Assembly: GCA_021234155.1 (NCBI GenBank)
Contig: JAJEKV010000057.1
Span: 3,379,821 to 3,443,820, forward strand
Length of the DNA: 64,000 bases
DNA from: Isoetes taiwanensis
Taxonomy: Eukaryota; Streptophyta; Lycopodiopsida; Isoetales; Isoetaceae
Reading direction: 5' to 3'
Positions 1-33,077 of the stretch are shown piece after piece. The notes under the pieces are model-generated. The model was not told where the DNA came from and did not search any database. It saw only the letters and a list, made by a program, of their open reading frames with translations. The translations under genes and the position numbers were made by a program. Within the stretch, counting starts at the first letter, position 1; each line of letters opens with the position of its first letter.

Positions 1-156
1 GTATTTAGATAATTATCCTTTATAATTAATTTAACATAGCTAATTAAATCCCTTGTGGCCAACCCCCTAGGTTATCATACCCCGTGTATGATCTATACCG
101 AAAGGACGGTCAATATATTTATAATGCATAATCGTGATAATTACTTGGAACGTACA
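1..156 (-). repeat. 3' LTR of the chromovirus, partial
   Basis: On the minus strand the LTR begins TGTACGTTCC directly after the polypurine tract and leaves the window at base 1. It aligns with 23184-23336, the start of the 5' LTR. The innermost 83 bases are identical and the outer 70 are clearly diverged. The remaining LTR, about 1.4 kb judged from the 5' copy, is outside the window. Confidence 0.85.
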
Positions 157-1536: not shown

Positions 1537-1540
1537 CACA

Positions 1541-1566
1541 GGGTTAAAGCACAATGTAGTGTCTCA
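1541..1566 (+). repeat. left terminal inverted repeat
   Basis: Begins GGGTTAAAGCACAATGTAGT. It pairs with the reverse complement of 13244-13269 at 22 of 26 positions, with mismatches at positions 5, 6, 16 and 23. Confidence 0.85.
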
Positions 1567-1569
1567 TTT

Positions 1570-3350: not shown

Positions 3351-5503
3351 TTGTTATTTGTGAGCTCTTTCTTATATGTAGGCCATGAATATGAACTCAC
3401 TACGACTTTGTTATGCAAATCCAAACTATTTCTTAAATTCAAAGAGCAATATCCAGAGGTGAAGATCCATCAAAGGGCATTTGAGAAATTAAAGCCATGG
3501 TATGTAATGAAATTGAAGCAATTTAACTCTTTGTCACGCCGATACATCATGTGAGGTTGCAAATGTTGTTAGATGGTTTTAATAAGTTGAGGGACCAAAG
3601 ATGTGAATTCTTGTAGTTGTGCATGTGGAGTATGTCGTTGTATGGAACAAGACATTTGTATTGCTAGGACGAAGAAATATAAAACAACTACGAGCTATGG
3701 CGCCTATCCTTTGCCCAAGGGAAGAAAAATCAAGAATTTCACAAAAAAGATTGCATATATGGGCTTTGTAGCAATTGTGGTATATCACAAATTCCGATAT
3801 GTCCATTAGAGTTATCGCACCAAGGATCTATTAGTTGGGAGTATTGGGATTACGAGGAAGGTGGTAAGGATAAGTGGGGAAAACCAAGAAAGTACTTAAG
3901 CCGCTTTGGGAAAGAGACCAACCACCTAACGCTTACGATAAATTGATTGACAGTTGGCTAAGTTTCCTTTGCATAGTTTCAGGCATAAGTGGCAAGCAAA
4001 GCAATTCAAGGAACCGCTTGAAAACCTTCCTCCCGCATTCTTGTGTCGCTGGTCGATTTTGTCGAGAATTTTTCTATTCAAATTTACGTAACCAAGTTCA
4101 CCGATATTGGGCTACTAAACAAAGTTACTATCTTAGTGCATATTACATACTATGTAGACTCGTGTCGTCGTGATATGATAAAAGACACTCATTATTATAT
4201 ATCTGATGATACAAAGCACGATACATTGTTTGTTCAACACGCTTTTATGATGCATTATGACTTTATGAAACAACAGGGCATGGATCCAAATAAACATTGG
4301 GTCTTTTTCGTGATGGAGCAAAGATCACAATTCAAAGCAAAGAAGACCATTCTATTTTGTCTGGACGATACTCACATGACACACAAATTGAGATGATGTG
4401 GAATTTTTTTGGCTCGAACCATGGTAAAGGCGAGCATGATGGTAAAGGTGCAGAATTAAAACGGTGGTTGAGGGAATTGATGAAGAGACAATCATCTTTA
4501 AAAATTGAAGGTGCAACTGATATAGTCAAAGTAGCCAAGGAGGGCTTTGCTTTTACTGCTCCATCTTCTAGTTTGAAAAGGAAATCAGTCAGAAGATGGT
4601 TTTGGGAAGTGGAGGGGGTAAATAGAAAGAACCTTTGGGCAGCAGAGACTATAGAAGACACAAGGAACATTCATTCTGTTCATGGATTCAATCTAGAATG
4701 CCCTACCCAATTGAATGTAAGACGTTTATCTTGCTTTTGTGTAAATTGCTTAGATGCGGAATGGGAGAAATGCATGAACAAGGATTATGTAGATAATTGG
4801 GAGCTTGTTACAGTTGTACCAAGCAAGGCATTGGCTGATGAATTTGAGCAACGCAAATCTGAAAGAGCCAGGTTTTCCATACAATCAACTATTTTGACAA
4901 ATGATATAAGAGTGGGCTTACAATTTTGCAATTGCCGCACCAAAGGATAATGAAGAGGGGGCATTATTTTGGGTGATGAAATGCACAAAGACTAAGTATG
5001 TTGTTAAGGAAGCCTTTGAGGTCAATGGCCAAACGCTTTATCCAGAGAGGAGCTCCTTGAAGGTATTTACTTTCAAAAGGCAAAGAAGATCACAAACCAG
5101 CTATGTTTTATGCTCTGATCAGCCAAATGCAATAGTGTACGCCACTCAAGTTTGTGGAATTAAGTTGGCCATGCCACAAGCGAAACATCGGCTGAAGGGA
5201 AACAAAGTTGTATACACGCTCAATGAAGCTGATAGTGAGAAAATTTTAGACAATCTTCCTGATGTGTTAAGTGATGATGAAGACTAACAAGAAAATGTGG
5301 AAGGTCGCTTCTTGAAGACAAAGGTACTTGTACATAATACAGATTTAATTCTTCTTCCATGCATTGCATTGAGACTTTACTGTACCATTATTTGTTGCAG
5401 GTTTAAGAAGACTCTACCTTCTGTGAGTTCATTGAGCATATTATTTGCTGCTACATGGGAGACATACAATTATTACAGTTACAGAAGTTACACGCAGTGG
5501 TGA
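3351..5503 (+). pseudogene. decayed DDE-type transposase candidate
   Basis: Fragments in shifting plus-strand frames line up as one protein. They are: a block with FEKLKPWYVMKLKQFNSLSR (3.4-3.55 kb); a cysteine-rich segment CSCACGVCRC (3.6 kb); SDDTKHDTLFVQ (about 4.2 kb); FRDGAK followed by MMWNFFGSNHGKGEHDGKGA (4.3-4.45 kb); and a C-terminal region ending in acidic DDED (5.28 kb). The spacing of D-rich blocks and the HGKG..DG motif resemble a transposase family I recall from repeat-rich plant and invertebrate genomes, but I cannot name the superfamily. At least three frame changes and stops show decay. After 5287 a possible intron (GTACTTG to TTGTTGCAG, ending about 5400) leads to a last exon. 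Its position inside the TIRs makes it the likely source of mobility. Confidence 0.6.
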
Positions 5504-5988
5504 AGAATCTACATTGTGAAGTTGAAGCATTCACCTGGAAATAGGCCTTATTGTAAACCTTATTGTTGCTTGATGTTGCATCATCAGCAAACGATTATTT
5601 GAATATTTGAATGTCCAACTTGGACTTATACTGTACTGTCAATTGCAGCTTGAATACAAAGAAATATCCCTGCTCTGTTTTGGGAAGCAAAATTGTATTA
5701 TCACTGTTTTAGTTTGAAGTTTTTCATTTGCATTGCTTTGTCTATTAGCTCTTGTTGGCTGCAGCAGGGAGAGATTGTCCATTATCTCGTGTTGACTGCA
5801 GCAGGGAGAGAAGGAGCAGCTTGCCACAAAGTTTGCTGTTTGTTTTGTAGTGGTTGTTCTTTCCTAATATGTGAAGATTTGGTTCATGTTGTGTATTAAA
5901 TTGAACCAATGTTAGTGTGAAGATTATGACAGTCTCTGGACTGAAGTTGCTCCTGATTTATGGTTTCTGATATGGGGAAGTTGCATGC
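5504..5988. other. region downstream of the transposase fragment
   Basis: No gene is supported. The phrase ctgcagcagggagaga occurs twice near 5760 and 5795, a short local duplication. Confidence 0.35.
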
Positions 5989-6066
5989 GCATTAATCGCA
6001 TATATAGATCACGATAAATAATTCTGATATGCCCCGCATTAATCGCATATATAGATCACGATAAAT
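5989..6066 (+). repeat. two-copy tandem repeat, period 47
   Basis: The 31 bp unit beginning gcattaatcgcatatatag occurs at 5989 and again at 6036 without mismatch. Both are preceded by tctgatatg, so the duplicated segment is slightly longer. Confidence 0.8.
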
Positions 6067-6398
6067 CATTAAAGACATGGTGAATTAGATCAATTCCAAA
6101 GAAAACAAACCCTTTTGTGTGGATCAAAGTTCGAGTTTGAGTCGCTGGTTTTCGAAGTCAATGACCAAATGAACAAGAATATTCAATTAAATCAATTCCC
6201 TCGGTTTATATATCCCACAAGCATGAATGAAAAAAAAAAAAAACCATTGTTATATAAGCATTTGCATTTTTCATTTAGGTTGGATTGGGTCTTCATGGGA
6301 AAGGAGAAGAAGAAGATCCTTTCCCATGAAGATCCATTCCTTGATCCATTCCTTTTAAAGATTTTCTTAATTAATCAATATTCGACTTAACCTTTTTA

Positions 6399-7346
6399 GG
6401 ATCTCAACATGAAATGTCTAGCATCTAGATTATTTTCCTTCTTGTGCAATGCTTCTAAATATCAAACAATCAATACAATTTAACTATAGAACCATTGAAC
6501 CATTGAATTCAAAAGTTCAATAGAAAAAATTCATGTTCATCCTCAAGAGCCCGGGCATTCATTATTATTAAAATGAATCCAATGATACACCGCCGCTTCT
6601 ACCGATTCGCCCATTCTAAATTTGAATTAATGAACCCGCCTTCGATATTTCGACGAGCATTTCCTTTGGTTCTCAACCAATGGCACTAAAGGTTCACAAT
6701 AATGATAATAATTAGGTTCGCCACGAACCATTGAACCTTATATTATAAGGTTAACTTTTATCTTTGGCATAGGTTCACTAATGACCTTTATACTGTCTTT
6801 GCTCCCTTGCATTTCACAGGTCTTCTTACCCTGTTTGAGTTGAACCTTTTTAGGATCCTAACATGAATCAATAGAAAAAATTCATGTTCATCCTCAAGAG
6901 CCCGGGCATTCATTATTATTAAAATGAATCCAATGATACACTGCTCGTTCTACCGATTCGCTCCATTCTAAATTTGAATTAATGAACATGTTCATCCTCA
7001 AGAGATATTCGATCGAAAGCATTTCCTTTGGTTCTCAACCAATGGCACTAAAGGTTCACAATAATGATAATAATTAGGTTCGCCACGAACCATTGAACCT
7101 TATATTATAAGGTTAACTTTTATCTTTGGCATAGGTTCACTAATGACCTTTATAATCGCCTTTGCTCCCTTGCATTTCACGTGTCTTCTTACCCCTGCTT
7201 GAGTTGAACCTTTTAGGATCCTAACATGAAATGTCTAGCATCTAGATTATTTTCCTTCTTGTGCAATGCTTCTAAATATCAAACAATCAATACAATTTAA
7301 CTATAGAACCATTGAACCATTGAATTCAAAAGTTCAATAGAAAAAA
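6399..7346 (+). repeat. nested direct duplications inside the DNA transposon
   Basis: Three segments recur nearly identically: 6399-6536 with about 7210-7346; 6520-6600 with about 6868-6950; and 6660-6842 with about 7017-7210. The phrase ttgaaccttttaggatc marks the joints at about 6390, 6840 and 7203. High similarity implies recent amplification. No coding function is seen. Confidence 0.8.
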
Positions 7347-8823
7347 AACCATGTCTAGATCCATTGAATTCATTGAATTCAAAAAATCTTTTAACCGCCT
7401 AGATCTAATATCCCAATATTGGGTAACACCCAATATCCTTATATAGAACATTAGGCCTAGGCCTAGAACATATTTTATGAAAACACCCATATAGAACATT
7501 CGATATGGGGTGCTTTCATAAAATACCCCAACACCCCATACCTAATGTTGGACTCGACTTTTGAGGCGTGCTTTTAAGTTTGCATGCAAAGCAGCTGTAA
7601 TCGCTCACTCTTCATTTTCACTCTTCGCTGTAACAGAACGCCATTCTATGGCTAAGATGAAAGTTTACCGCCGTGGTGCCAATGGAGGAGTCCGCTGCTT
7701 CCAGCCACCGCCGTGAGGGCACTAAACCAAGATTGTGGCCAAATTCTCTTGTCCGAGGTGAATCGGCCGCAAAGAAAAAGGAGCCGCAGCCTCATCTAAG
7801 GTCCAAAGAAGGATAGACCGTGGTGCATGCAACTCGATGAACGCCTTCGAGATGCACATTGAAGCTTCCGGGCGATGACCTTCATGTTCACCGATGATGC
7901 CTTCGCTCATGAACTTCTATCTTCTCGGCTCTATGGATTTCTACACCGATATATGGCTTTCTCGGCTACCTAGACAAATTTTTGTGTAAATGATGTTTTT
8001 TGTGTAAAGAAGTTTTGGATTTAAGCTTTTTCTAAGTGAACTTTTTCCTGTAAGCTCTTGAATGAGTAACTTATGATTCCAAATGTAAACACTTGATACA
8101 TATTATGATAATATATTACCGCTTTTTCCCTTTGTAATCGTTTCTCGTTTTTTATACCGCATGCAATATTTCTCCTCAACCCTAAACCCCGAAGTTGATC
8201 CTCCGTGTTTAACTTTGATTTTAACACAATAATAGTTCACCGGTGCCGTGGCAGGCAAAAGGTGGCTATAAAATAGGTTGTTACGTGCAGTTGTTGGCTG
8301 GGTTTGTGTGAGTTAAGTGGCTATAAAATAGGTTAAGTGCAGAGACTGATACAAATTAAGCATGATGAGAAACCAAAAGACTTTGATGTTAGAGTCTCTG
8401 AACTTGCAAGCAAAATAAGTCCTAAACCTGAACAAATTGCATAAACAAATGCAATGAACAAATTGCATAAACAAAGTGCAGAAAGTGCAGAAACAATTGC
8501 ACACACAAATGCATCCAAGGCATTTTGAAATCTGTGGTTTGAGAATAACATACAATGTTAGTTATCAATTACATATTCAATTGCACAATCTATTCTATCT
8601 ATTTCAATCTAATGAACAAAGTGCAGAATGCAATGAATGATTTTGAAATCTCTGGTTTGAGAATAACATACAATGTTTACAAGAAATGCATCAATATCAA
8701 TACAATGATTCCAAATCAATAACAAATCACGTAACATTGTAATCTGATAAAAGCAAAATCAGAAAGAATGTAAAGTGAGAAAAAGTTATATTGAATAAAC
8801 CAAGCAATTACAACAGATAAATG
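7347..8823. other. spacer between repeats and the minus-strand gene
   Basis: No gene is supported. A phrase around tttgagaataacatacaatg is duplicated near 8540 and 8660, and 8400-8500 holds repeats of acaaattgcataaacaaa. The 7430-7550 part contains inverted runs (cctaggccta, accccat) that could fold. Confidence 0.4.
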
Positions 8824-9470
8824 TCAAGAATACTTGTATTTCTTCAGAGTATCAACGGCTTTCTTGGAAGCCTTATCCGTAAAGTTAGTTAATGGATTGG
8901 CCCGAACATACACTTCCACATTCTCGCCTTCTAACAAATCCCTTCCAGCCATGGTTTTAGATGTTCAAATTAAGAAGTCACCATCTCTTCTAGATGGTTG
9001 ATAAGTGTTAGGGCATACCATCGTATGTGGATCGTTCTTAAAACCACGGTACAACATATCATCGATTAGCAATGTGTTATGATGCATCCATGCTCCCTTC
9101 ATTTCAGAATAAACCTTGCTCAACTCCTTCAACAAAATAGGCTTCCTATCAACTTTGAATGCCGTATTTGTGCACTTACCCAAGACCATGTAAACCGTAA
9201 GCTTTCTAACAAATTTTTCAAACATTTGATTCGTAATAAGATTAGTTGCAAAGTACGCTCATTGTTGTCCAAATGGCAATCTTGAAGTTATCCTTGCACC
9301 ACTCTAGAAGCTCCTTAGCCTTCTAACGGGCGCAATACAGCTATCTTTGTGTGATTAAGGTGCTTTAGTTCTGCACCATCCATGACACAACTTGGCAATG
9401 GCTCAGTATTCTCAAACAAATTTCAAAGAAAACTCCATCTAGCTCAAAAATCAAAAGCTTTTATGCTTAC
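8824..9470 (-). pseudogene. FCP1/HAD-phosphatase-like domain, C-terminal exons
   Basis: Minus-strand fragments match the order of a plant FCP1-homology (CTD-phosphatase-like, HAD superfamily) domain. They are KLLIFELDG at about 9.46 kb, where the nucleophile position is E instead of the family's D; ELLEWCKDNFKIAIWTT at about 9.3 kb; then KPILLKELSKV and NTLLIDDMLY at about 9.05-9.15 kb (the second aspartate pair is kept); and ENVEVYVRANPLTNF ending in a TGA at 8824-8826. Stops and frame changes separate the pieces. In active members this domain removes phosphate from phosphoproteins. Here the altered first motif and the breaks argue for a dead or regulatory copy. It lies within the DNA transposon and is probably the 3' end of the gene at 9.5-12.5 kb. 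Confidence 0.6.
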
Positions 9471-9962
9471 TTCATCCTTTTGGTACATGGAGACTTGAAG
9501 GGTCTGCTAAATACTTCGCTACGTTTAATTTTCTTCCTTGCAGCCATTAGAGCCCTTGCATTTCCTGGAAGGAAATGCTTTAAATAAACAAATACGAGAC
9601 ACTTCATACAAAAATAACAAAGAATTACCAGGTGAAACAGATTCTTGTGATTGTGTTCGATGAGATGTCTCCTTCTTTGTCTTCACAACCGACTACATGA
9701 TGAAATGGGAAGACTACCATGGGTTTCAATGGCCTTATTATCGCCTCACTGCACCAACAAACTTTGATTGACACAAAGTAGCCTCCCTATTGACAACAAG
9801 CGGACTGCCCACATTCAGTTTATTTCCACAAGGTGATGAAGCAGTGTCGCTCACATCTTTCGCATGTCGCGGTCTCTTTAAGTCTACAAGCATTACAGAA
9901 AGCTAAATTGACAACATGTAATAACAAACACATAAGTTTTGCAGAAACCTAGTTTGTCCAAA

Positions 9963-10245
9963 CATGCATTACCTGGTGATATCATTGTCGTCTTTGGCTC
10001 ATTCTCTTCGTGAAATATCAACTCTTTGTTTTTACCTTCAGCTTCCACAGCAGTACCTATCTTTGATGAGTGGCCTTGAATATCTAGATGTACATAAATA
10101 AAAAATCATTGCTATGCAACAACATTTGAAAAGCTAGTCCATTTGAACATATAATTACCTGGATGACTCAAGATTGCAGTGTTTGGCTCAAAAGACATCA
10201 GAGTTGTACAGCTATCGTGCAATTCCAAACCAGTTGCTGATTGTC
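9963..10245 (-). pseudogene. two similar small exons of the captured gene
   Basis: On the minus strand, two exon-like blocks each begin D(I/S)QG.S and end in S.PG or SPG followed directly by a GTAAT donor: about 10245-10158 and about 10090-9972. The second contains EAEGKNKELIFHEENEPKTT. Their likeness suggests exon duplication. No domain is recognised. Confidence 0.4.
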
Positions 10246-10572
10246 CTTGACTATCTGTGTTTTGCAAATGTGAAGAACATATACATGGTCATGCTTTTTA
10301 GAAGCTGCAATAAATCCTGCAAAGTAGAAAACATTTTTAGATTTGTTACCATCATTGTCCTTCTGCTCTTTGTAAGAAATAATGTCCATAGAACCCTTCC
10401 CAGTTGTTAATGCAAAGGCTCAAACGCCTCTCGATAAGTTTATGTTCCTTGGGATATGATATGGAGGCCGGGGTGGAGCTAACACCTTTCATTCTCGATT
10501 TCTCTGTTTCCATATGCAAGTAACATTCATTAAGTTATCTTGTGTGAGCTGAAAATAATGAATACAACCAAC

Positions 10573-11345
10573 CGTGCGAATCTAGGGTTATGCTAATGTT
10601 GGACTCCTGGCACCCCTTTAATCCAAGAAAAGACAGCCATGATTTTGACATGTTATATCCACAATCGGTATAACAACATATTGTAGAGCAACTGCAAAAA
10701 AAAAAACACTGTTAGAAAAATTCATTCAGAAAATAATGGCATGGGAAGATGCTACCTGAAATGCACTACGCAACATGCCACATGATATGCATGTCTACAC
10801 TCCACAATAATGATTGGCAAGAGCATATCATCCAATGTCAGTGACCTGTTACAAAATGGGCATGCTTCATTCAAATTAATGCTCAAATCTTCCTTCATAC
10901 TATGAACAACGACCGGTGTTTGGGTAGGCAAACAAGGATCGAACTCAAAAGGTTTGCACATGCTGGATCGAGATGCCAACAGCCTCATAAGGCAGGGCCT
11001 CAATTTGTTTAGCTGCTCCAACTCGACATCTCTAGAAATCTCTGAATTCAGTAAGTCATCGAGAGCTTGCTTCAAAGCTACACCCAATTCTTCAAGATCT
11101 CTTTCTTGCAAGTCAATTACTGCCTCAACACCCTCCTTCGCTGCACTTGAGAGCTTTGTGCACAAATCTTGGTACTTCTTAATCTCATTGGCCACACTAA
11201 CCTGCCTAGCTTCCAAACCTTTAATATTTTCTTTGATGACACCGCACTTTTCGCCACTTAGTTGCGCCGATAGTCGCCTTTGTTCACATCATGTTCTGCA
11301 ATAGAAATCCATTCCTCCAATATCCTCGACATCTCTAAAACACAA
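10573..11345 (-). pseudogene. coiled-coil and zinc-binding exons of the captured gene
   Basis: An exon follows a TTGTGTTTTAG acceptor near 11330. After one frame change it runs in the 11216-10752 frame. It starts with charged heptads (IKKYQDLCTKLSSAAKEGVE, DLEELGVALKQALDDLL), a coiled coil, and ends in CPFCNRSLTLDDM...CRHAYHVAC, a cysteine/histidine pattern like a RING or PHD finger. A further exon (about 10688-10570, acceptor TTTTTTTTGCAG) supplies CSTICCYTDCGYN, plausibly the rest of the finger. The finger is best called a zinc-binding domain of unassigned type. Whether the exons were captured from a host gene or belong to the transposon's own accessory gene cannot be decided here. Confidence 0.5.
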
Positions 11346-11967
11346 AGAGACACTAAATTAGAATATTGAATAAATTAGATAAACAATTGACTGCCATTAA
11401 CTTGCAGCTATAAGACACAAGTTGCAAGCTGTAACTTTGACCTATGGGACGTAAGCTTCAAGCCGCAAGTCGTATGATTGACCTATGACACACGCCAAGC
11501 CGAAGTCGCAATCGTGACCTATGCGCTACAAGCTTCAAGCCGCAAGTCGCGACTTTTGACCTATGGGACACAAGCTTCAAGCCGAGGTCGCAAATCGCAT
11601 GACACACTCTCTCACTATGACTGTGGCTGAATCTGCAACTACTAAGGCGTGGTGCACCATGGCTGAGACTGAGACTGTAAATAGTAAGGCATGACACATC
11701 TGCAACAAACAACTGTAAGCTTCCACCTGCAATTGCAACTGTGACTGGAAAGATTAAGATGGTAGTAAACATTAACTAGAACATGTGCTTAAGCTTGTAG
11801 CTGCAACTCACAAATGCATGCTTTTACCTATGAGTTAACTGCAAGTTCAGGTTTGACTTACAACATATACAAGCACATGCTTCTAACTATGAATACAACA
11901 ACGATTTTAGATTTAGCTAAGAATGTACTACAGAAAAATAAAAAAATAAAAACAGCAATCAAATAGT
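11346..11967. other. intron of the captured gene with internal repeats
   Basis: It lies between the donor at about 11968 and the acceptor near 11330. It contains several copies of a phrase like caagcttcaagccgcaagtcgc (11450-11600), a degenerate minisatellite. Confidence 0.45.
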
Positions 11968-12495
11968 ACCTGGTATTTTTTTTGCGTAATTGGCATCATT
12001 CACCTGGGTCTTACATGGCACATTAGAGCTAACATAGATTTGTGAAGTGGGCTTATCAACAAGCACTGGCGCAATTGGAGACATTGTCAACTGAGGAACA
12101 ACATTTGTTGTAACTTTTTCCAGCCCATCCTCATAATCATTGTTTGAAAGTGCTCTACTCTTTGCAGCTGACTTTGCATGCTTGTAGAAGCTCATCCAGT
12201 TTATTTCACGGCCATTGCAATGTAAGAGAAATGCTACTGCCAATGCTTGAGGCACCTGCCCTCCTAAAACCTTCTTACGATCATGTATTTTTGTATACAA
12301 TGATAGAAACTCTTCCTTCTTGTTTTCCTTCAATAATCTGAACCTATAACAAGACTTACCATTTACCTTTGGACCCCACATCTTTCGCATGTCATTCTCA
12401 TCAACATTCTTGTCCTCTGATTTATATAACTCCTTAAAGGTCAAACCTTTGCTGCTCAAATTTGGAATTGCATCGTTTGGTACTGCTTCCATGAG
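11968..12495 (-). pseudogene. first recognised long exon of the captured gene
   Basis: The exon begins after an AATATGTTTACAG acceptor at about 12496 and ends at CCAG before GTACTATTTG at about 11970, so both edges look like real splice sites. The open frame reads through LMEAVPNDAIPNLSSKGLTF, then MRKMWGPKVNGKSCYRF, then a basic segment. The mix of a charged helix and a conserved-looking MWGPKVNG block is not a domain I know. Upstream exons toward 13.1 kb are not resolved. Confidence 0.45.
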
Positions 12496-12507
12496 ATCTG
12501 TAAACAT

Positions 12508-13243
12508 ATTAAGACAGAGTTTAAAGATTGGCTAGAATTAAAGAAATGCTTGAATCAAATGTAAATATTTTGTAACAATTGGCTAGAGACGATTTTGGTC
12601 CATAAGAGCTATTACAGTCCTATATTTTCCCTGCCTAGAAAGATGAACTCAGCAGCATGTAAAATATTAAGACCCAAAGATTATTCAACAAGTCAGCCTA
12701 CATTATTCACTTACACAAAGCATGTTCAAATAATTACATGAGGTATGCTAAAAATACTTAATAATTATGGTAAGAATTTAGAGAAGATCACGCAAAGTCA
12801 CTCAATTTATCTGAGCACTCAATATAAAGAATATGAATTAGGTCGAGTCCTCTTCTCTGCAAATTTAACTAGAGAATTAACAGCTTCAAATTTTATGCCT
12901 TATGGTGATTAAAACAAAGAGCATTAGTGTGAAGACTGAGAAGACGGCTAATGCAATAGAATAAGATTTAGAACAAGAAAAAGAACAAGAACGCATGATG
13001 CCTAAGAACAACCTCGATGGAAAAGATGGAGGAGAAAACTTGATGCCGCTTTTAGCCGTGGTGGCGTAGGTGGGACGTTGAATGATCGAGCTGTAAGAGT
13101 CGGCAAAGAAAAGAATTCCCTCCCTCCCATTCTTGCTATTTCCCGATCCCTCCCTCTCTCCGTTAGTTTCGGAAAATTCAAAATACCACCTGACATTCCC
13201 ACTATTTTTCTAACTACTATAGTAGTTCGAATTAAGACTTTTT
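12508..13243. other. right non-coding part of the DNA transposon
   Basis: No coding sequence is supported except possibly a 5' exon near 13000-13080 on the minus strand. It is the likely promoter side of the minus-strand gene, but no clear TATA box could be chosen. Confidence 0.35.
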
Positions 13244-13269
13244 TGATACACTATATTGTGCTTCTACCC
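13244..13269 (-). repeat. right terminal inverted repeat
   Basis: Its reverse complement begins GGGTAGAAGCACAATATAGT, matching the left end. Just inside is a palindrome, ctaactactatagtagtt near 13210-13228, a possible subterminal binding site. Confidence 0.85.
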
Positions 13270-13640
13270 CACACATAACTTCGCAGCATATCCTCAATAA
13301 TGCGATTGGTACGTTCTGTCTGACCATCTGTTTGAGGATGATATGCCGTACTCATAGCAAGCTTGGTCTGAATAGTGGCAAAGAAATCTTTCCAGAATGC
13401 ACTTACAAATTTGGGGTCCCTATCCGACACAATTACTCGTGGCATTCCGTGTAATCTGAAGATTTCTTTGGCAAAAAGCAGAGCGGTATCAAAGGCTGTA
13501 TCCGTGGTACGACATGGCAAGAAACGAGCCATTTTCGACAATTTGTCGACCACAACCATTAAGGCATCATACCCCCGGAGAGTTCTTGGAAGGCCCACAA
13601 TGAAATCCATGGTTATCACTTCCCATTTGGCGTTGGGCAC
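13270..13640 (-). pseudogene. Ty3 integrase catalytic core, N-terminal half
   Basis: The frame shows the integrase triad in order: ITMDFIVGLP (first Asp), VIVSDRDPKF (second Asp) and YHPQTDGQTERTNRIIEDML (Glu). It catalyses strand transfer of the cDNA into chromatin. It is cut within the core's end by the DNA transposon, and the rest is at 759-1536. A frame change near 13642 separates it from the upstream zinc-binding part. Confidence 0.88.
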
Positions 13641-13642
13641 GT

Positions 13643-14953
13643 CTAGAGGTTGTAGCTCACCCGATCCTTTAACGCTTCAGCCTTAGTTTGTCGGGCATAC
13701 CCCATTAATCGCTTAATGTATCTGGCAATGTCCTTTTTCATAGAAGGCCAAAAATAACTGGAACGAATCTTAAAGTAGGTTTTCATAAGCCTCGCATGTC
13801 CAGCTATAGGGCTGTTGTGGGTGTCGTGGAGGATTAGCTTACGCACTCCCGAGGACTCAGGTACACACAACTTATCCTTGTGATATAATAAGTTGCCCTC
13901 TTTCTTATACGCACGAAAGGCTTCGCGCTCCCTATCCGTGCGAGCTTCCTTAGCCAAACTATCCCAAATGTCACGGAACTCCTGGTCTGTGGCCAAGGTC
14001 TGCTCTATCTGTTTCCCAAACTCACTGGCGAGTGTAGAAATGGCATTACAATGGGTTCGGGTCACCAAGGGATGGCGTGACAATGCGTCCGCAACCACAT
14101 TGTGCTTGCCAGGCTTATACATAATTTCAAAATCATATTCTTCCAAGAATTCCATCCATCTTCTCTGGCGGAGATTGAGATTTGGCTGGGTGGATAAATA
14201 ACGGAGGCTTTGATGATCCGTATCCAACTGTAATCTCCTACCAAGAAGGTAGTGTCTCCATATCCGCAGGGCACGGACAGCGGCTAACAATTCCTGATCA
14301 TGGGTAGGGTATCGCTGCTCTGTCTCGTTCATTTTCTTTGAATCATAGGCAATAACCCACCCCTCCTGCATTAGGACTCCACGGGTGGCAATCTTACTGG
14401 CATCTATTGCCACTAGTTTATCCTTCTCAGGATCGGGCAATGTGAGAACTGGTGCTGATGTTAAAGCATCCTTAAGTTGCTGGAAACTGCCCTGAACTTT
14501 TGTCTTCCAGTGTTCCATCCAATCCCTCACTTTCTCATGCTTTGTGAGATTTGTAAGAGGGGCTGCGATCTTTGCAAAATCCTTTACAAATTTTCGATAA
14601 TATCCTGCTAATCCCAAGGAACTCCGGACTTCGGAAACATTCCCTGGAATAGGCCATTCTTTTACGGCCTCTATCTTTGCTGGGTCTGTAGCAATTCCCT
14701 CTGCCAAAATAACATGGCCCAAATAATCGACCTTCGGAGTGGCAAACTTGCACTTAGAGAACTTGGCATAGAGCTGATGACGCCTTAGCTTTTGTAGGGC
14801 TAGCCTAAGATGTTTCTCATGCTCCTCCAGGGTCTTACTATAGATGAGAATGTCGTCAAAGAAAATAACAACAAAGTCATCCAAGTATTGTCGAAAGACA
14901 TCATTCATTAGTCGCATGAAAGTTGCTGGGGCATTAGTTAATCCAAAAGGCAT
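13643..14953 (-). pseudogene. Ty3 RT C-terminal part, RNase H, integrase zinc region
   Basis: The 436-codon frame begins at [12 protein letters not shown] and has the RT active site [13 protein letters not shown]. Next come the connection domain and RNase H ([17 protein letters not shown], then the DHQSLRYL and NVVADALS blocks). The integrase N-terminal zinc region starts with [19 protein letters not shown]. The usual second cysteine pair is missing: [11 protein letters not shown] stands where C..C is expected, so the HHCC finger looks damaged. The upstream RT half is in another frame (14938-15705), so at least one indel near 15000 breaks the polymerase. Confidence 0.9.
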
Positions 14954-15705
14954 AACTGTAAACTCATAATGCCCATATCTAGTGCGAAAAGCAGATTTAT
15001 GGATGTCTCCTCTTTAATCCTTATCTGATGGTATCCGGAGCGTAGATCAATCTTTGAGAAATACTTAGCCCCTTGCAACTGATCCATTAGGTCATCTGCT
15101 CTAGGCAAAGCATAGCGATTCTTGATGGTATGCCTGTTCAGTTGCCGATAATCAATACACATCCTCAGCGAGCCGTCCTTTTTCTTAACGAAGAGAATAG
15201 GAGCGCCAAAAGGCAAAACACTAGGTCGGATGAAACCTAGGTTTAGTAACTCCTGAAGTTGCTTCTTAAGTTCTGCCAATTCTGGAGGACTCATACGGTA
15301 CGGGGCCTTGCTGGTAGGCTTGGTACCCGGCTCTAAAGCTATTTCACATTCCACCCCTCTAAAAGGAGGGAGCTTCTGAATCTCATCCGGGAAAAGGTCA
15401 CCAAATTCCCGGAGAAGATGAGCAATCCCCTCTGGCAAGGTGTCGATTACTTGCTTTTGTTTAGCATCTGACTCTATGGAAGCAAGGCTAATGATGCAAA
15501 GGAGCTTTTCCCTGCGTATAGCTTTATCTAACTGCCTGATGGAGATAGACTGCATGATAGGGTTGAATGGTTCACCTCTGATAGTCACGCGGGTTCCATT
15601 AGCTGCGTTGAAGGTAACTTCTCTCTTCTCGCAGTCTATGTTGGCTTTTGCAGATGCCAAGAATTCCATACCAACAATGAGGTCATATTTGCCAATATCC
15701 ATCAA
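14938..15705 (-). pseudogene. Ty3 protease end and RT N-terminal part
   Basis: It starts with [19 protein letters not shown], the protease C-terminal strand, and continues with the RT fingers and palm: [50 protein letters not shown] frame change follows within the next motif, and the continuation is in the 14953-13643 frame. A second frame change near 15710 separates it from the gag-protease frame. Confidence 0.9.
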
Positions 15706-16961
15706 TTCGCACCCAAAGCAACCGGTGCACCTGGCAACTGCATCTTAAGATTGATGCGGCGGCCATGGGTATGCCTGACCTTACCACTGGCTAGAGTAAC
15801 AGGTCTTGGTCGGGACCTTAATGTTTCAAGCTGTAAGACCTGGGCCATCCTAGGAGAAGCAAAGTTATGTGTACTTCCCGTATCCATAAGAATTACGAAA
15901 GGCTTACTGTCTACTTGACCTATGGTGGAAATGACAGCAGGCTGACTTTCCGCATTGCCGGTTTCTATAGCTGCAAGGATATGAGACGCACCGTGAATGT
16001 ACTCAGGAGCCTCCTCTTCGCCAGGTAAGGTCGACTCTAGATCGTCCCAATCGAGATCGGCCATGGCCAGCTGGGCAGTCTGCGTAACATAAGGACAATT
16101 GTGCATAAAGTGGCCGGGCCGCATACACCTGTAGCATGCCTTATCCCGGCGGAGCTGCTCCCGGGCCTCCTTAGGAATAGACTGTAAGAGGTTCCGTACT
16201 TCCTTACCGACATTGCTCTGTTTATCCGGCGTGGTGAAAGTAACTTTCTTTTCCTGGCGGCCATAGGAATTCTGCTGAGAGGGGCCCGGACTTGGCGACT
16301 GGGGTTTGTACGGTGTGGATGGCCGGGGCTGCGAGTAAGGAGCAGGACGCGGATACTGGTTTCTTGGTGTGTCCTCCTCGAGGCTCAATGCCTTAGCCTC
16401 AGCCTCCACAACTGATTTTGGGTCTATGGCTTTAACCATCCGTTTAATTGATGGGGCCAACCCTTCAATATAACCCTCTACGGCTCTCTTTTCATTCATA
16501 CCTGGTACATATAGCCTCAAGCGCATAAACTCATCAGTGTAAGCCTGAACCGTCATACCCTTCTGCTCCAACCTATAAAAGGTCTGAATCTGCTGGCATT
16601 TGTGCGCACGAGGCACATAATGCGACTTGAAGGCCTTGGCAAACTTCCTGAAGTTGCATCTGCTCCTGTCCAGATGCTTGGCCCTGGCATAGCCCTTCCA
16701 CCAAATACGGGCAGCTCCTGTAAGGTTGGTGGTGGCAACCTTTCCTGTATCCTTCTCCGTCATGCCATAAGACTTCCCAAACTCCTTCATCTCGTCCAAC
16801 CAGGATTCTGCATTTAGTCCGCCTCTGGATTTCCCATCAAACTGGGCCAATTTCCTATTCTTCCATATACTAGTTATAGTCAGATCAACCGCCTTTCTGC
16901 GGTATTCCTTATCCCGGCGCTTTGCATGGTCACCAGCTGATACCGATGATCCAGAAGACAC
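15702..16961 (-). pseudogene. Ty3 gag and aspartic protease
   Basis: The frame carries the capsid region (AESWLDEMKEFGKSYGM, then ARIWWKGYARAKHLD, then FYRLEQKGMTVQAYTDEFMR), a proline-rich linker, a zinc knuckle CYRCMRPGHFMHNC for RNA packaging, and the protease active site ILMDTGSTHNFASPRM. Gag forms the particle and the protease cuts the polyprotein. The true start is upstream (17017-17280, other frame). The serine-rich stretch just before residue 1 also continues this frame to about 17045. Confidence 0.9.
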
Positions 16962-17016
16962 CGAAGTGGTTGAGCATGAGGAAGTGGCACTATCCTTAGA
17001 AGAACTTCGGCGACGC

Positions 17017-17280
17017 TTAGCATGAGGCCTCCTTGGTGCAGTACGTGATCGCCTCCGGGGAGATGGTCATTGTCAGTGCAGTGGACTTTGCGGTGGTAGC
17101 GGAGGTAACTCCGGTCCATCTTCCCTCGGGTTTGTCATGCGGTGGGTTGGCATGCAACACATAGGCTTGTAACTCGCCTAACTGCCTTTTCATTAACATC
17201 AGTTCCTGTTCGGGTGTGAGTCTACTAGCATTTGAAGGTGTTTGCCAGGCGGCGTTACGTGCACCGTCTAAATCGAGCAT
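17017..17280 (-). pseudogene. Ty3 gag N-terminus
   Basis: The ATG at 17280 opens MLDLDGARNAAWQTP and LTPEQELMLMKRQLGELQAY, a typical gag N-terminal amphipathic helix. It runs out of frame at about 17050, where the 15702-16961 frame takes over. An AG acceptor-like ATTTAG overlaps the start, so splicing from an upstream leader is possible. Confidence 0.6.
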
Positions 17281-17500: not shown

Positions 17501-17957
17501 CTAGGGGTTCGCAAAGGAGTACAGGATCGAGTAACGAACACTCTCACGCACAGCCCTAACGAGCTTGTAGCGTGCCCAGGCCTGGACAATTACTGGTTGG
17601 TATTCCCACGTTGGGCTAACAATGAGAAGATTGAAAAGCCTTCTCAAAGCATAGAAGAGTTGCCACAGGTGGTCGTTAGCGTCCTCGAAGGCTTCGTGCC
17701 TGGTCATGCTCCAGTAGTCCCATGTGCGGCACAGAGTTTTCTTCAGGTCCTCAAAAGCTCTGTCCCTGAGGATATTAACTATCTCCATCCCTTTGGCTGG
17801 ATCATAGGGTTCTCCTGGTGGCGGGGGTTCCATCTCGTAACCTTCATCCCATTCTGGATATTCTCCATATCTCTGGCCATAGTCCTGCTCGGGCGGCCCT
17901 GGATCCTCCCTCCTGATCAGATCTGTAATCCTTTCTTCATATTCCAGAAGTGTCTCT
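17501..17957 (-). CDS. uncharacterised ORF upstream of gag, with splice acceptor
   Basis: On the minus strand a CCATTGTCTTGCAG acceptor ends at about 17958 and opens a frame that runs without interruption to the stop at 17501 (about 152 codons). It begins ETLLEYEERITDLIRREDPG, has an acidic, tyrosine-rich stretch, then PPPPGEPYDP. It ends in a helical region with tryptophans (TWDYWSM, HLWQLFYALRRLFNLLIV, VQAWARYKLV). No family is recognised. The frame is intact while gag-pol is broken. It could be a second-exon product spliced from the ORFs at 18-21 kb, or an accessory gene of the element. Confidence 0.5.
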
Positions 17958-18182
17958 TCTGCAAGACAATGGCAATGAATATAGAGTGTTGTATAATTTT
18001 TTTTATTTTACTCTAACTTCAATAATTAGAAGAACTTATCATGGAAAAGAACAATTGTATTCCTCGATACCGTAATCACAGTCGATCAGAAAAAGGGTAT
18101 ATCATATTATAGAATGGCTAAAGAATTTACCAAACCAAAATTTTACAATCATACGCAATACAAAAATGCGTAGTGCAATTAT

Positions 18183-19583
18183 TTAAGAACTAGAGTCTCC
18201 CTCTTCATTCGTAGGCCTAGGAGGTGGTGGAGGCGGTCGGTGTCGCAGCAGAGTCACCCCGGGGTCTACTGTGGCAGCCGCAATAGATGCAACCTCTGGT
18301 GGATAGGCAACAGCCAATGGGGCTGCCGTAAGGAGCTTCATGCTCATCCAGGGTGCAATGTCTTGGCCCAAGGCCATCAGGGCGAGATCCCGTCGCACGA
18401 GTACATAAGTAAACGTACGATAGGGAAGCTTCTTATGCCCGGCCAATGTGGAGAGAGCACGGAGGGTCCACCATGAAGCTTCAGCCTCCGGTCCTAGATC
18501 TCGGGCTATAAAAAGAACTTGGCCCTGCCGAAAAGCTGATAAGAAGAAGCGAGTAAGGTGGTTTCCCAATACCTTTCCTTGTGGGGTCTCCGACGTGGCC
18601 ACTTCCTTATCCAAATCCATAGGGACTTCTTCTTCCTTAAGTTCCTGTTGCTCCTCCTTCACATGAGTAGGATTATGATATAAATCCTCTCCCTCGTCAT
18701 CTGACCCGGAGGGAACCTCAACCATATTGATATTTGGGACGTGAGGTCCCATAGCCGTGAAGGCATCTGGTGAAGGCTGAGAGGCCGGCTCCTGCATCAC
18801 CAAGTCCCGAAGCCGTAGCAATGTCTCGGCGGGTTCTATAGTCTCCTGGCAGAACTGGAGCAGCTGCTGAACCTCCGGAGGAAGCTCAATAGAAGTGAAG
18901 TCGATGAAATCGTCCATACAATACTCCGCAAGCTCATAGAGCACATGGTCTTTACGCTTGCGTCTAAATCCGGCCACCATGTGATAAGTCCAGATAATAT
19001 CATCCAAGAGAAGATATTCTTGCCCTTGGTGATAAATAACTGGAAGGGCATCCAGCCCTGACAAGCCTACAGCTTGCTCACGGCGCGGTGGCAGCTCTTC
19101 CGCCAGCTGCTTCCAACGGGCAAAGTCGCCCATGCCTATGTGTTCGTCTTCCCCCTCCTCAGAAGACTCAGGCAGTTTGCCTTTCTCTACAGGCAAGGTT
19201 TCATCCTCGACGTATTGGTCCATGAGGATGGCTAGGGCGAAGGCAACCTCAAGATACTGCCGCCCCTGGTGCTGCACAAAGGGCAGGTGTTTGCCCCATC
19301 GGAGCTTCCCCTTCAGCACATCATATGCATGGGTGTCTCCCGCTAGCATCTCCCGGACTACCTCCCGCTCCAGATACAGTTGGGGAGGATCCCCAAGAGG
19401 AATACACAGAGGGAGCATCTCCTCCATGTAGAAGTCTAGAAAGCCGGCATAATCCGAGTGCCGCTGCATGTTGGTAATGAGGTCTAGGCGCTGGCATAGC
19501 AAGGGCCGCAACAGGTCGAAAGGGACTTGCAGATCCCAATGTTCTCCGTCTTGATACCATGCGAGAAGATCAGCGGCGGCCAT
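18183..19583 (-). CDS. uncharacterised 466-codon accessory ORF of the chromovirus
   Basis: The ATG at 19583 (GCCATGGCC, a strong plant start context) was chosen over the in-frame start at 19637, whose extension looks like 5' UTR. The frame is intact. It holds an N-terminal helical region (AWYQDGEHWDLQVPFDLLR), two copies of a motif like LP..(Q/Y)HQG(R/Q).YL about 86 residues apart, an acidic serine/glutamate tract (EVPSGSDDEGEDLYHNPTH), a helical domain and a proline run before the stop. No known family was recognised. The upstream 130 bp is AT-rich with tttaaaaagg, which may be its own promoter. GC-rich like its neighbours at 17.5-21 kb and unlike the flanking AT-rich DNA. Confidence 0.6.
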   Translation of the reverse strand: MAAADLLAWYQDGEHWDLQVPFDLLRPLLCQRLDLITNMQRHSDYAGFLDFYMEEMLPLCIPLGDPPQLYLEREVVREMLAGDTHAYDVLKGKLRWGKHLPFVQHQGRQYLEVAFALAILMDQYVEDETLPVEKGKLPESSEEGEDEHIGMGDFARWKQLAEELPPRREQAVGLSGLDALPVIYHQGQEYLLLDDIIWTYHMVAGFRRKRKDHVLYELAEYCMDDFIDFTSIELPPEVQQLLQFCQETIEPAETLLRLRDLVMQEPASQPSPDAFTAMGPHVPNINMVEVPSGSDDEGEDLYHNPTHVKEEQQELKEEEVPMDLDKEVATSETPQGKVLGNHLTRFFLSAFRQGQVLFIARDLGPEAEASWWTLRALSTLAGHKKLPYRTFTYVLVRRDLALMALGQDIAPWMSMKLLTAAPLAVAYPPEVASIAAATVDPGVTLLRHRPPPPPPRPTNEEGDSSS

Positions 19584-19803: not shown

Positions 19804-20223
19804 CTAAGGACGCTCCCCCCGAATCCTACGGGCGAGGGCTAAATCCTTTGGCATAATCGTAACTCTCTTTGCGTGAATCGCGCAAAGGTTAGCGTCACCA
19901 AAAAGTGCCACCAGATAGGCTTCAGCAGCCTCTTGGAGCGCCAAAATAGCAAAGGTCTGGAAACGGAGGTCGGTCTTGAACTCCTGCGCGATCTCCCGTA
20001 CCAGCCTCTGGAAGGGAAGCTTCCGTATCAGAAGCTGGGTGGACTTCTGAAACTTGCGGATTTCCCGCAAGGCCACGGTACCGGGTCGGTACCGATGGGG
20101 CTTCCTTTGTGGGGCAGCTCCAGGCACGGTCTTGGCCCCAACGGCTGGCCGGGATGCATCCACTCGCTCCTGCCTCCGATCCGAGCTCGCCTTCTTACCA
20201 AAGGCTCCGACTTCTTCCTGTGC
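19804..20223 (-). CDS. histone H3 globular domain captured in the chromovirus
   Basis: The minus-strand frame opens after a TAA at 20224-20226 and ends at 19804. From the [16 protein letters not shown] block to ARRIRGERP it is 100 residues, ungapped against canonical H3 residues 36-135 recalled from memory, with about 14 differences by eye (for example E59Q, S87F, G102A, E105G, I124L, Q125A). The alpha-N, alpha-1, alpha-2 and alpha-3 segments are complete. There is no loop-1 insertion, so it is H3-like, not CENH3-like. K56, K79, C110, H113, K115 and K122 are kept. The modifiable tail is absent and replaced by about 40 residues without K4/K9/K27 context. No ATG opens the frame. The preceding ORF (20978-20028) overlaps it in another frame, so a fusion by a frame change or frameshifting near 20.17-20.22 kb is likely. 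Confidence 0.85.
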
Positions 20224-20978
20224 TTAATAGTGGTGTGCTCGGTCGGTATTGGTCCCGGGCCACTCCCTGATGCCCCTCCATCCTGCGGGTTTAGCTGGTC
20301 CTGCCGAGCCCTCTCCTCGCATTCGAGCCTCTCCTGTTCCTCCCGGAACTCCCGGGCGCTCCTAAGGTTTTCTTCAGCCTGAGCTACGTTACGGCGAAGA
20401 AGTTCAACATGGTACCGATGGGGCCGTTGGCTCATATCAATCTGGATCGTCGTTAGATAATCCAGACTGATATCAGGGATCGGGGCTCCCCACATGAAGC
20501 TCTGGGAAGCTTCATGCCATTGGTACGGGGGAACCTCAATTGCCCTGCCATCTATGACGGCAAGTCCGTCCCCTAAGTACCGGTACTCCCTTCCCCGAGC
20601 CGCCGTATCCGCTCGCTCAATCTCCCGATGGTCATCTTCTTTAGCCAAACCTCTGATGCGATCGGCCTCTGTCCTGATGTCCTCCTCCTCAGTATGCCCC
20701 TCTTGTTCGGGAGGATAGAACTTAATCAGCATCATGACCATGTCATGTTGCTCCACGATGGTGTAAGAGAGCTGGCGAAGGTTCAGCCGGATCAGGAATG
20801 GCTCCGAGAAATGGTAGATAGAATAGGGAATCCTATCATTATTCTCAAACCGGTTCACCAACTCGTCCAAAAGGATGTCGATGAAAGCCGGGTCGGTAGC
20901 CATGTACTGGGCGATCATGGCATAAATCTCCACTATGCTTAGGGTAGAAGGGTCCGGGACGCTCTTGGTATTGGCCAT
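20028..20978 (-). CDS. uncharacterised ORF overlapping the H3 domain
   Basis: The ATG at 20978 (GCCATGGCC context) is preferred to the in-frame start at 21011. The protein starts [20 protein letters not shown], is helical, then has a charged coiled-coil stretch ([20 protein letters not shown]), a GASGSGPGP linker and a basic patch [11 protein letters not shown] just where the H3 frame opens in the next register. The last 65 codons overlap the H3 frame and look like out-of-frame reading. The simplest reading is an N-terminal partner domain fused to H3, split by one indel. No family is recognised for the N-terminal part. A TATA-like run (tataattattttataat) lies about 230 bp upstream. Confidence 0.6.
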
Positions 20979-21757: not shown

Positions 21758-21769
21758 CCATCGATACCA
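21758..21769 (-). other. primer-binding site candidate
   Basis: On the minus strand TGGTATC follows the LTR's terminal CA by one base. This matches the start of the initiator-Met tRNA complement (TGGTATCAGAGC), with the following bases diverged (GATGGC). Confidence 0.65.
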
Positions 21770-21770
21770 T

Positions 21771-23336
21771 TGTGGACGCTCCTCGATATATATCACTCCT
21801 CGTTAGATACATACGAGGACTTTCCCTCCCATGGCGACCATCTCGCCATTTGCGGCCCCCTCCATCTAACCCGGCCGCCTACATAGAGACGCCGGTGAAG
21901 GGACACGGAGGGGTCATTCGGCCCACGCCTTCGATGGGCTCCTACGTCGCGGAAGCATGAATACAAGGGTTAGCACACAACATAAATCATATACATTTAG
22001 CCACCACGAAGGGTGGCGCATCCATCCAAACATTAACAACAAAAAATATGCATCTAAACTAAGAAAACGCCCAAAACCCAGGTTCTACCCCGGCTCAAAC
22101 TCTAGTGGGGAGCGGCGGCCCGGTACTGGTCTCGGGGAGATCAGCCGGACCGAATCTTGGCATGGCGTTGGGCGGCATAGAACATCGGCTAGGGTTGTCC
22201 ACTCCATCCGCCTCCTCGTACACACTTTGCGGATGGGTCGATTCACGCCATGGCCGCTATAGCCTTCCTGAGACTTGAGACTCAAGGTATCACCCTTTGA
22301 GCCTACTCCGTGTTCATGACACACAGTCCGATTCCCCTTCCAGATCACGGTGGTTCCATGGGTGAGCTAGAGAATACGTGCCGCGATCAGCCCCCCCCCC
22401 AAGATCCGCACCCAGACTTACTCACCCTAATTCTACTCAAAGTGCATGGTGCCCCATACGGTCACACCACTACACCCAGGGGAGTGTCGGACCCATACCC
22501 GGCCCTCTACGGACCACGCCATCGTGCCTAGCCCACCAGGAGTCCCAGGAGCCTTTTATGCTCGTGCAAGACCCCATCCCCTACTTCACCATCAGGTCCC
22601 TTGTCCTGGTGCTAAGCCGGACCATAGCGCCTATGACCCGTGGGCTCTTGTGCACAAAGGAAACTAGTAGGGTGTTAAAGGAGTACTAGGAGCATTCTAT
22701 ACTCAAGCTCAGAGGCCTCTACCTCCCCCTTTTAATCCCTGTTTACTGGAACTACTAAACTAACTCATAGAGACATTCGACCATCCCATAACAGAGCATC
22801 ATTCATAATTGAAAAGTATTCCTAATTACCAAAGAAGGGTTAATCTCAACCCAAAACTAGCCAAAAAGAATACTAGAGTATTATTCTACAATTTGCAAGT
22901 TAAACTACCACTAACCGAGTTTCGGGCCGGACCCGTTGTCAAGGGTGCTTCCATAGTCTTTATCTTGATCGGGTAGCAACATGTGTAGAGGGTGTCTTGG
23001 CGATTGGGGAATGTTCAGCAACTGTGCTTTGAGCGCTTAGCTGCTCCTTGGTGCTGGCGGGGTCGAAATTGGGGGCAGGATGGGGGTGGCGCTGCCTTGG
23101 GTGGCTCAGTTTAGAAACCCCCATGCTGGCCGCTCAGGTCATGCCAAATTTTCCTTCCCACCATTAGGTGACTTAATAGCAAGTATTTAGATAATTATCC
23201 TTTATAATTAATTTAACATAGCTAATTAAATCCCTTGTGGCCAACCCCCTAGGTTATCATACCCCAGGTGGCGTATCTATACCGAGTGACGTGTCAATAT
23301 ATTTATACGTACACCGTATAATTACTTGGAACGTCA
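21771..23336 (-). repeat. 5' LTR of the chromovirus
   Basis: It begins TGACGTTCCAAGTAATTA at 23336 and ends in CA at 21772-21771, giving 1566 bp. Its first 153 bases match the 3' LTR fragment at 1-156. The LTR has GC-rich blocks with no supported ORF. The outer flank is CAAAA at 23337-23341; the partner duplication is outside the window. Confidence 0.8.
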
Positions 23337-24010
23337 CAAAAAGCAAATTGGTCATCCAATCACTGGTATCCCTATTGTTTTTAAAAAGCATGTATGATAT
23401 AGCATCAGACAAGCAACGTAACAAGCTTTGAGGATAAGGATTTGATCATAATGTACTAGCCCTATTTAAAAATTTAATACTTGTTTCTATACCGTAGTAC
23501 CATAAACTGCATAATCCGTATGACAGAGTGTCTCATGCACGAGCTCACATAGATACAAGTTACACAATATAAGATAAATCCATAGGTAACATCAATGCTA
23601 AGTATGCTATTAAGAACTAAGACAAATCAGAAACTAAAAACATATGTCGCCTCACATTGTGCATTCTGGGACAATTACGGTTCATGAGTTCAAATTTATT
23701 GCCAAGACTAACTCCGCTAAACGACATTGAACGATTGAGTTCGAATTTGTACTCAATAACGATTGAAGTTATTTGTGAAGAATATTTTAATCTAGAACAA
23801 CAAATATTAGATGTTAACGTTAGCTCATGATGACTATGGCTTGCCATAACATTATATGTTTAATAGTAATAATATAAAATTTTTGCCGGGAAATAGTTGG
23901 AAATAGCTCACCTGACAGAAAACAAAAGTGTTGTTCAGAAGGCAACTGGTGGTCGAGAAGAACCGCATCACAGGTCTGGAGACCCGCACGCAGCACGTAG
24001 AAGATGGCCT
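23337..24010. other. intergenic, nothing recognised
   Basis: AT-rich sequence without a supported ORF or repeat. Confidence 0.4.
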
Positions 24011-33076: not shown

Positions 33077-33077
33077 T

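Follow-up and report, generated by a model that had tools for sequence, protein, structure and literature searches.

Does a retrotransposon that carries a histone make use of it? The question arises from a stretch of 64,000 nucleotides of the quillwort Isoetes taiwanensis (the window), in which the original prediction had placed a complete histone H3 globular domain inside a Ty3 chromovirus. The placement holds: the minus-strand open frame 19804-20223 matches the Pfam Histone profile (E 8e-43), aligns with host H3 without gaps over the core, and sits between the primer-binding site and gag in the same orientation as the element. As set out below, the H3 core of the first element protein, ORF1, changes far more slowly than silent sites and the rest of ORF1. 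We see about even chances that this core pairs with host H4 and forms nucleosomes in which the element's N domain replaces the modifiable tail.

Structure of the element in the window

One copy of a Ty3/gypsy chromovirus family lies in the window, interrupted by an insertion of 11.7 kb whose short inverted ends are like those of a DNA transposon (Table 1). Counted from the 5' LTR, ORF1 comes first among the ORFs, and gag has its own ATG. The family form of the primer-binding site is one that we take to be of the initiator Met tRNA type. As had been described, the upstream part of ORF1 and H3 lie in different registers in this copy, and the pol frame, which also holds the insertion, is broken beside an intact H3 frame. 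The frame break within ORF1 is a lesion of the window copy. Elsewhere in the window, positions 31428-33923 (+) contain a second, distant Ty3-type pol with 22-37% identity to that of the H3 element, and ORF pieces at about 26057-28091 (+), judged by eye, resemble a LINE endonuclease and RT.

Table 1. Features of the H3-bearing element in the window
Feature	Position	Strand	Remarks
5' LTR	21771..23338	-	TGTGACGTTCC...CACA; blastn with LTRs of seven other copies; ends read from sequence
Primer-binding site	21758..21769	-	degenerate in window copy; family form TGGTATCAGAGC; sequence adjoining LTR end, window and copies
ORF1 region	19804..20978	-	N domain, coiled coil, basic linker, H3; ATG 20978
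Histone H3 globular domain	19807..20103	-	K37 to frame end; Pfam Histone; gapless against host H3
ORF2	18183..19583	-	466 codons; acidic, pI about 4.7
ORF3	17501..17958 (or to 18007)	-	about 165 codons; probable downstream exon; 3' splice-site-like TCTTGCAG at 5' edge
gag (Ty3_capsid, Retrotrans_gag) and protease	15702..17280	-	own ATG about 17280; two frames in window copy
Protease end, RT, RNase H, first part of integrase	13265..15744	-	several broken frames in window copy
11.7 kb insertion	1541..13264		splits integrase gene; short inverted ends CACAATGTAGTG / CACAATATAGTG
Integrase C-terminal part including chromodomain region	780..1540	-	tblastn with pol of copy L012
Polypurine tract AAGGAGGGGAGAA	157..169	-	
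3' LTR beginning	1..156	-	truncated at window edge

The histone H3 domain

The residues K56, K79, C110, H113 and K122, which had been reported as kept, are all retained in the window, as is K115. The modifiable tail is lost, again as reported: the canonical N-terminal tail with K4, K9, K27 and K36 is absent, and the N part and linker of ORF1 stand in its place. The match exceeds chance: a degenerate H3 motif of 24 bases is found a single time in the window and never in 100 shuffles. The element H3 is gapless in all 31 copies inspected, with a stop in L033 alone, and falls into three groups (A, B and C) described below. CenH3s are marked by a longer loop 1 and a diverged core. An identity as CenH3 was considered and appears wrong, since there is no insertion relative to host H3 and the commonest residue is identical in the host and all three groups at 75 of the 97 H3 sites.

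By residue lists that we assume to mark H3-H3, DNA and ASF1 contacts, the contact residues for DNA, the H3-H3 bundle and ASF1 are retained in all groups with few exceptions, namely Q125A in group A and the conservative changes R42K in B and K64R in C; P121T in group B adjoins checked contact residues. Residues 87-90 read FAIL in groups A and C and HAIL in group B, against SAVL or TAVL in the host, and the top PDB match for ORF1 of copy L021 is 7ux9_E, labelled Histone H3.3. The host's intronless H3 genes (L001-L008) carry SAVL or TAVL at these positions together with Y41; we take their residues to combine signatures of plant H3.1 with those of plant H3.3.

The N domain of ORF1 gave nothing of weight in a PDB profile search and a Pfam scan, and protein searches with two N-part queries found no relatives in 5.8 billion sequences, one of these searches scoring the best 7999 candidates by number of words in common. 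Its structure model is poor (pLDDT 43) and predicts a long helix at the end of the N part. The linker of L009 and L023 contains RKS, which could have been a mimic of the histone tail; this reading was rejected, as the motif is not conserved among copies.

Other copies of the element

Searching the genome with the Pfam Histone profile yielded 8705 first-look candidates; 150 of them were scored, all over the cut-off. Fifteen of the 150 resemble ordinary host H3 genes, with a match from profile position 2; the remaining 135, window copy included, start at profile positions 4 to 25, and their tail is thus partly or wholly missing. Ten copies with long open frames were fetched from the 135. In every one, ORF1 is a single frame of 442-464 amino acids from the first ATG, running from an element-specific N domain through a coiled coil and a basic linker (net charge +13 to +16 over the 60 residues preceding H3) to a gapless H3 core at the C end. 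The suspected fusion of a coiled-coil protein with H3 is thereby confirmed, and it recurs in 3 of 20 loci sampled without regard to H3 (see below).

Gag is present in all ten copies, ORF2 and ORF3 in nine (L025 is the exception), and integrase within the fetched span in eight (all but L009 and L027). The Pfam gene order, gag, PR, RT, RNase H, integrase, is that of Ty3/gypsy elements, and a chromodomain (PF00385, E 3e-9) was found in L012, the sole pol frame scanned. Seven copies have an LTR pair, with 89.6-96.5% identity; the LTR ends, TGTGACG...CACA, are followed by the family primer-binding site, and the polypurine tract or a near form of it precedes the 3' LTR. Target duplications of 5 bp, read by eye in the six copies that could be delimited (L021, the seventh LTR pair, was not delimitable), are perfect in L013, L015, L017, L019 and L025 and agree at 4 of 5 bases in L011. 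LTRs and target duplications thus surround the element as a whole, and H3 shares one frame with the N part; H3 lies within the element, and is probably not a block with insertion borders of its own.

Among the ten, gag-pol is interrupted by stops in every group B copy (six) and in all but one of the four from group C. Since the ten were chosen for open frames, they are uninformative on how often H3 is intact, and an intact ORF1 beside a broken gag-pol is to be expected among them. Two observations on individual copies may be added. The copy L025-L026, with LTRs 93% identical, has H3, gag and pol and is without ORF2 and ORF3. L013, L015 and L019 are 95-99% alike in and just upstream of H3, and some pairs of them are only 56-90% alike in stretches before and within gag, a patchwork.

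H3 in copies sampled without regard to it

A sample blind to H3 was obtained by searching the genome with ORF3 and scoring 150 of 3026 candidates; 20 hits were taken at roughly even ranks, and 1.7 kb was fetched where H3 was expected. H3 is present in 18 of the 20 loci, one of which (L051) holds only a 33-residue fragment, and was not found within the 1.7 kb fetched at L049 and L062. The N part and H3 share one open frame of 431-471 codons in three loci, and part of the N part shares a frame of about 300 with H3 in L052 and L066; the remaining loci are broken to differing degrees.

Exact matches to a degenerate H3 motif of 20 bases number 787 across the genome, a count that includes host genes and omits group C (which reads RLPFQR), versus 25 for the reversed motif. 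Its places were compared, by coordinates only, with gag and ORF3 hits over the first 100 places in contig order (up to 28.8 Mb of C907). Of the 14 gag hits in this part, 9 have an exact motif match on the same strand at a distance of 3.17-3.31 kb upstream and 5 have none; among the 13 ORF3 hits, the motif lies about 2 kb upstream of 5 and is missing for 8. For any one hit, the probability that a motif falls within 6 kb by chance is about 0.0014. With H3 in 18 of 20 loci found through ORF3 and upstream of 9 of 14 gag hits in the part compared, the concern that other copies might lack the H3 block is answered.

Selection on the H3 domain

The copies first used for dN/dS had been picked by H3 score and partly by long open frames, and the blind sample was drawn for that reason. 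Of its loci, 17 had 60 or more H3 codons and were analyzed together with the window (L051, L049 and L062 dropped). A clean set comprised 10 loci and the window, with no stops, at least 94 codons and more than 90% amino-acid identity to the window. In this set (70.8 synonymous and 219.6 other sites), changes common to at least two copies number 56 synonymous and 2 amino-acid, and private changes 48 and 28. The corresponding dN/dS is about 0.01 when changes are shared and 0.19 when they are private, although the identity filter favours low values. Across all 18 rows, several of which contain stretches resembling frameshifts, there are 84 synonymous and 24 amino-acid shared changes (dN/dS about 0.09), and 121 and 281 private ones (about 0.75). 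Both shared values lie well below the ratio near 1 that had been named as telling against a used H3.

These figures bear on whether the H3 is a passive passenger, a host message captured once and carried unused. LTR elements are known to pick up host genes, Bs1 being an example (PMC7264820), and single copies of the H3 element do decay. The absence of selection that marks a captured piece of the Bs1 type is, however, contradicted by the shared dN/dS of about 0.01 in clean copies, against 0.14 for the rest of ORF1, and three groups with saturated synonymous sites have retained H3; we regard a passenger as highly improbable. The value for the ORF1 N part (0.14 shared, 0.29 private) comes from eight better-preserved blind loci picked by hand, with L053 excluded for one stop.

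The same constraint on the N part bears on a second alternative, in which a tail-less H3 poisons host chromatin or soaks up H3 chaperones and so raises transposition indirectly. The tail is indeed gone and the chaperone surfaces are retained, but an element-specific N domain would have no need to be conserved in a general poison, and this domain is under selection. Such dominant interference seems quite unlikely.

Among copies picked by H3, the pooled pN/pS of H3 is 0.00 in group A (3 pairs), 0.018 in group B (21 pairs) and 0.062 in group C (210 pairs), with a host yardstick of 0.023 (six H3 genes, 15 pairs). In long group B copies, pN/pS is 0.016 for H3, 0.22 for the ORF1 N part, 0.53 for ORF2, 0.25 for ORF3, 0.50 for gag, 0.31 for RT and 0.54 for integrase. 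In those of group C it is 0.061 for H3 (6 pairs), 0.045 for RT (3 pairs), 0.15 for the ORF1 N part, 0.11 for gag and 0.10 for integrase; RT is there constrained like H3, and H3 is therefore not always the most conserved part.

Histones compact nucleic acid in some viruses, and element cDNA or RNA might likewise be compacted in the particle, either by the basic linker on its own or by the H3 domain together with host H4. The basic linker suits this reading, and so does the leading place of ORF1 behind the LTR, a place fit for an abundant structural protein. Selection close to that on host H3, on nearly every nucleosome surface checked, nevertheless exceeds what a packaging peptide needs, and we hold packaging to be unlikely.

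The H3 pattern fits a protein that is required for multiplication and free to decay after insertion. The original prediction had allowed that age alone could explain an intact H3 beside a broken gag-pol. The data answer this in part: individual copies decay, H3 included, and H3 is conserved along the lineages that moved.

Divergence among element groups

In a tree of 31 element H3s and eight host H3s, the two sets lie on opposite sides of a branch with support 99/98, and the element H3s form three groups within one clan apart from the sampled host H3. By commonest residue, all three groups have V89I, T107A and I124L in common and differ from the host at 86, 87, 102 and 105. The tree and the common changes are consistent with a single capture, which would hold relative to an outgroup of eight host genes from one genome.

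Divergence was measured in eleven chosen pairs, nine of which span two groups. Between groups, the ORF1 N part, H3 and ORF2 have reached or almost reached saturation at synonymous sites (pS 0.72-0.93), and dS ranges from 0.42 to 1.77 for gag and from 0.47 to 1.02 for RT. The pair L021 and L025 has a gag dS of 0.42 and an RT dS of 0.47, with an H3 pS of 0.85. Between-group dN in the chosen pairs is 0.08-0.12 for H3, 0.64-0.72 for the ORF1 N part and 0.45-0.55 for ORF2; ORF3, at 0.10-0.16, is below the latter two. In comparisons of the window element with L021, L017 and L025, gag-pol is less diverged than ORF1 and ORF2. The saturated 5' module and the less diverged gag-pol thus seem to have different histories, which recombination between element lineages would most simply explain.

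This apparent exchange matters for a further reading, in which the H3 core would anchor ORF1 in nucleosomes while the N domain or coiled coil would recruit Gag, integrase or cDNA, so that the element would supply landing pads for itself. As a chromovirus, it has a chromodomain of its own, which makes a targeting role as natural as an anti-silencing one, and the predicted long helix (from a poor model) and the basic linker would suit a tether. Yet gag-pol looks exchangeable between groups, as the low gag dS of L021 and L025 beside a saturated H3 illustrates, and the ORF1 N part and ORF2 diverge together, which makes a tight fit between ORF1 and integrase less expected. We consider a chromatin tether possible but doubtful.

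ORF2 and ORF3

ORF2 has a pI of 4.5-4.7 in all four sequences compared (three copies and P0002). Pfam and PDB profile searches with it gave nothing of weight, its structure model is poor (pLDDT 32), and viral contigs scanned with it held no relatives. The only database relative found, P0002 (472 amino acids, from an ENA contig of 3374 bases), is 43% identical and may point to a second host. As L025 is without it, ORF2 may be unneeded in cis or may have been lost from that copy after insertion. ORF3 has no Pfam match and no early ATG, and opens directly after TCTTGCAG or TTTTGCAG, both in the window copy and in five of six aligned copies (L019 differs); to judge from its letters, this motif looks like a 3' splice site.

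Comparison with known systems

The element shares with plant Ty3/gypsy chromoviruses the TG..CA LTRs, the iMet-type primer site, the gag-PR-RT-RH-INT order and the chromodomain at the integrase end, and differs in having extra ORFs before gag, the first ending in histone H3. DNA viruses that carry histones are known. Single H3s occur in a xenomavirus, Dishui Lake phycodnavirus and a sylvanvirus and, according to a review (PMC9145170), resemble ours in being lone H3s that take H4 from the host and read xAIL, two of the three also having a lengthened N terminus, a likeness to ORF1. They belong to DNA viruses, whereas the H3 family is a retrotransposon in which a separate protein domain has replaced the tail. 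Nudivirus Orf1 is likewise a long protein that ends in a histone fold and has an N part of no known type; the fold is an H4-H3-like doublet with 30-40% identity, unlike the single, near-host H3 of the element (PMC9145170).

Among mobile elements, an orchid Ty3/gypsy lineage with an AlkB ORF also retains a host-type gene acting on epigenetic or RNA marks, there an RNA demethylase and here a histone (PMC12786077). A Helentron with H4 and H15 gene fragments also has histone sequence inside a mobile element; these are broken fragments in eight copies, in contrast to the conserved domain in the quillwort (PMC4067079). Searches of open-licence PMC papers found no retrotransposon family encoding a histone under selection. 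The word retrotransposon occurs 0 times in the main text of the viral-histone review, and the word histone is absent from the main text of the genome papers of I. taiwanensis (PMC8566536) and I. sinensis (PMC10541799).

A possible role in chromatin

From the measured conservation we infer a chain leading from the H3 domain through the nucleosome to relief from silencing. The H3 domain of ORF1 would pair with host H4, and the ORF1-H4 unit would enter nucleosomes and display the element's N-terminal domain where the modifiable H3 tail would otherwise be. Deposition would follow a replication-independent, H3.3-type route, as suggested by FAIL or HAIL at residues 87-90 and by a best solved match labelled H3.3. 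In the viral-histone review, several single viral H3s read SAIL or TAIL at the chaperone site, animal H3.3 reads AAIG at residues 87-90, and it is considered likely that the viral H3s assemble with host histones into nucleosomes, probably by a replication-independent route (PMC9145170). ORF2 may be a dedicated partner, chaperone or loader of ORF1, since it is strongly acidic and diverges with the ORF1 N part and not with gag-pol.

Chromatin on or around element DNA would then be without H3 K4, K9, K27 and K36 and would resist tail-based silencing. In animal cells, retroviral DNA that has not integrated acquires histones as it enters the nucleus and receives the H3K9me3 mark (PMC8621569), and incoming element DNA could by the same logic gain from a tail-less H3 of its own. 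Tentatively, then, the retrotransposon may make its own chromatin, with ORF1 as H3 variant and ORF2 as dedicated acidic loader, in nucleosomes that bear an element domain instead of the silencing tail; this fuller scheme, which would serve escape from host silencing or self-marking within it, is possible rather than probable.

Transposon silencing works in good part through H3 tails, and a tail-less element H3 therefore permits a direct test of whether a parasite can prevail through substitution of the histone itself instead of inhibition of the silencing enzymes. As a natural variant with many diverged copies, the element H3 would also allow the surfaces of H3 that tolerate no change to be mapped.
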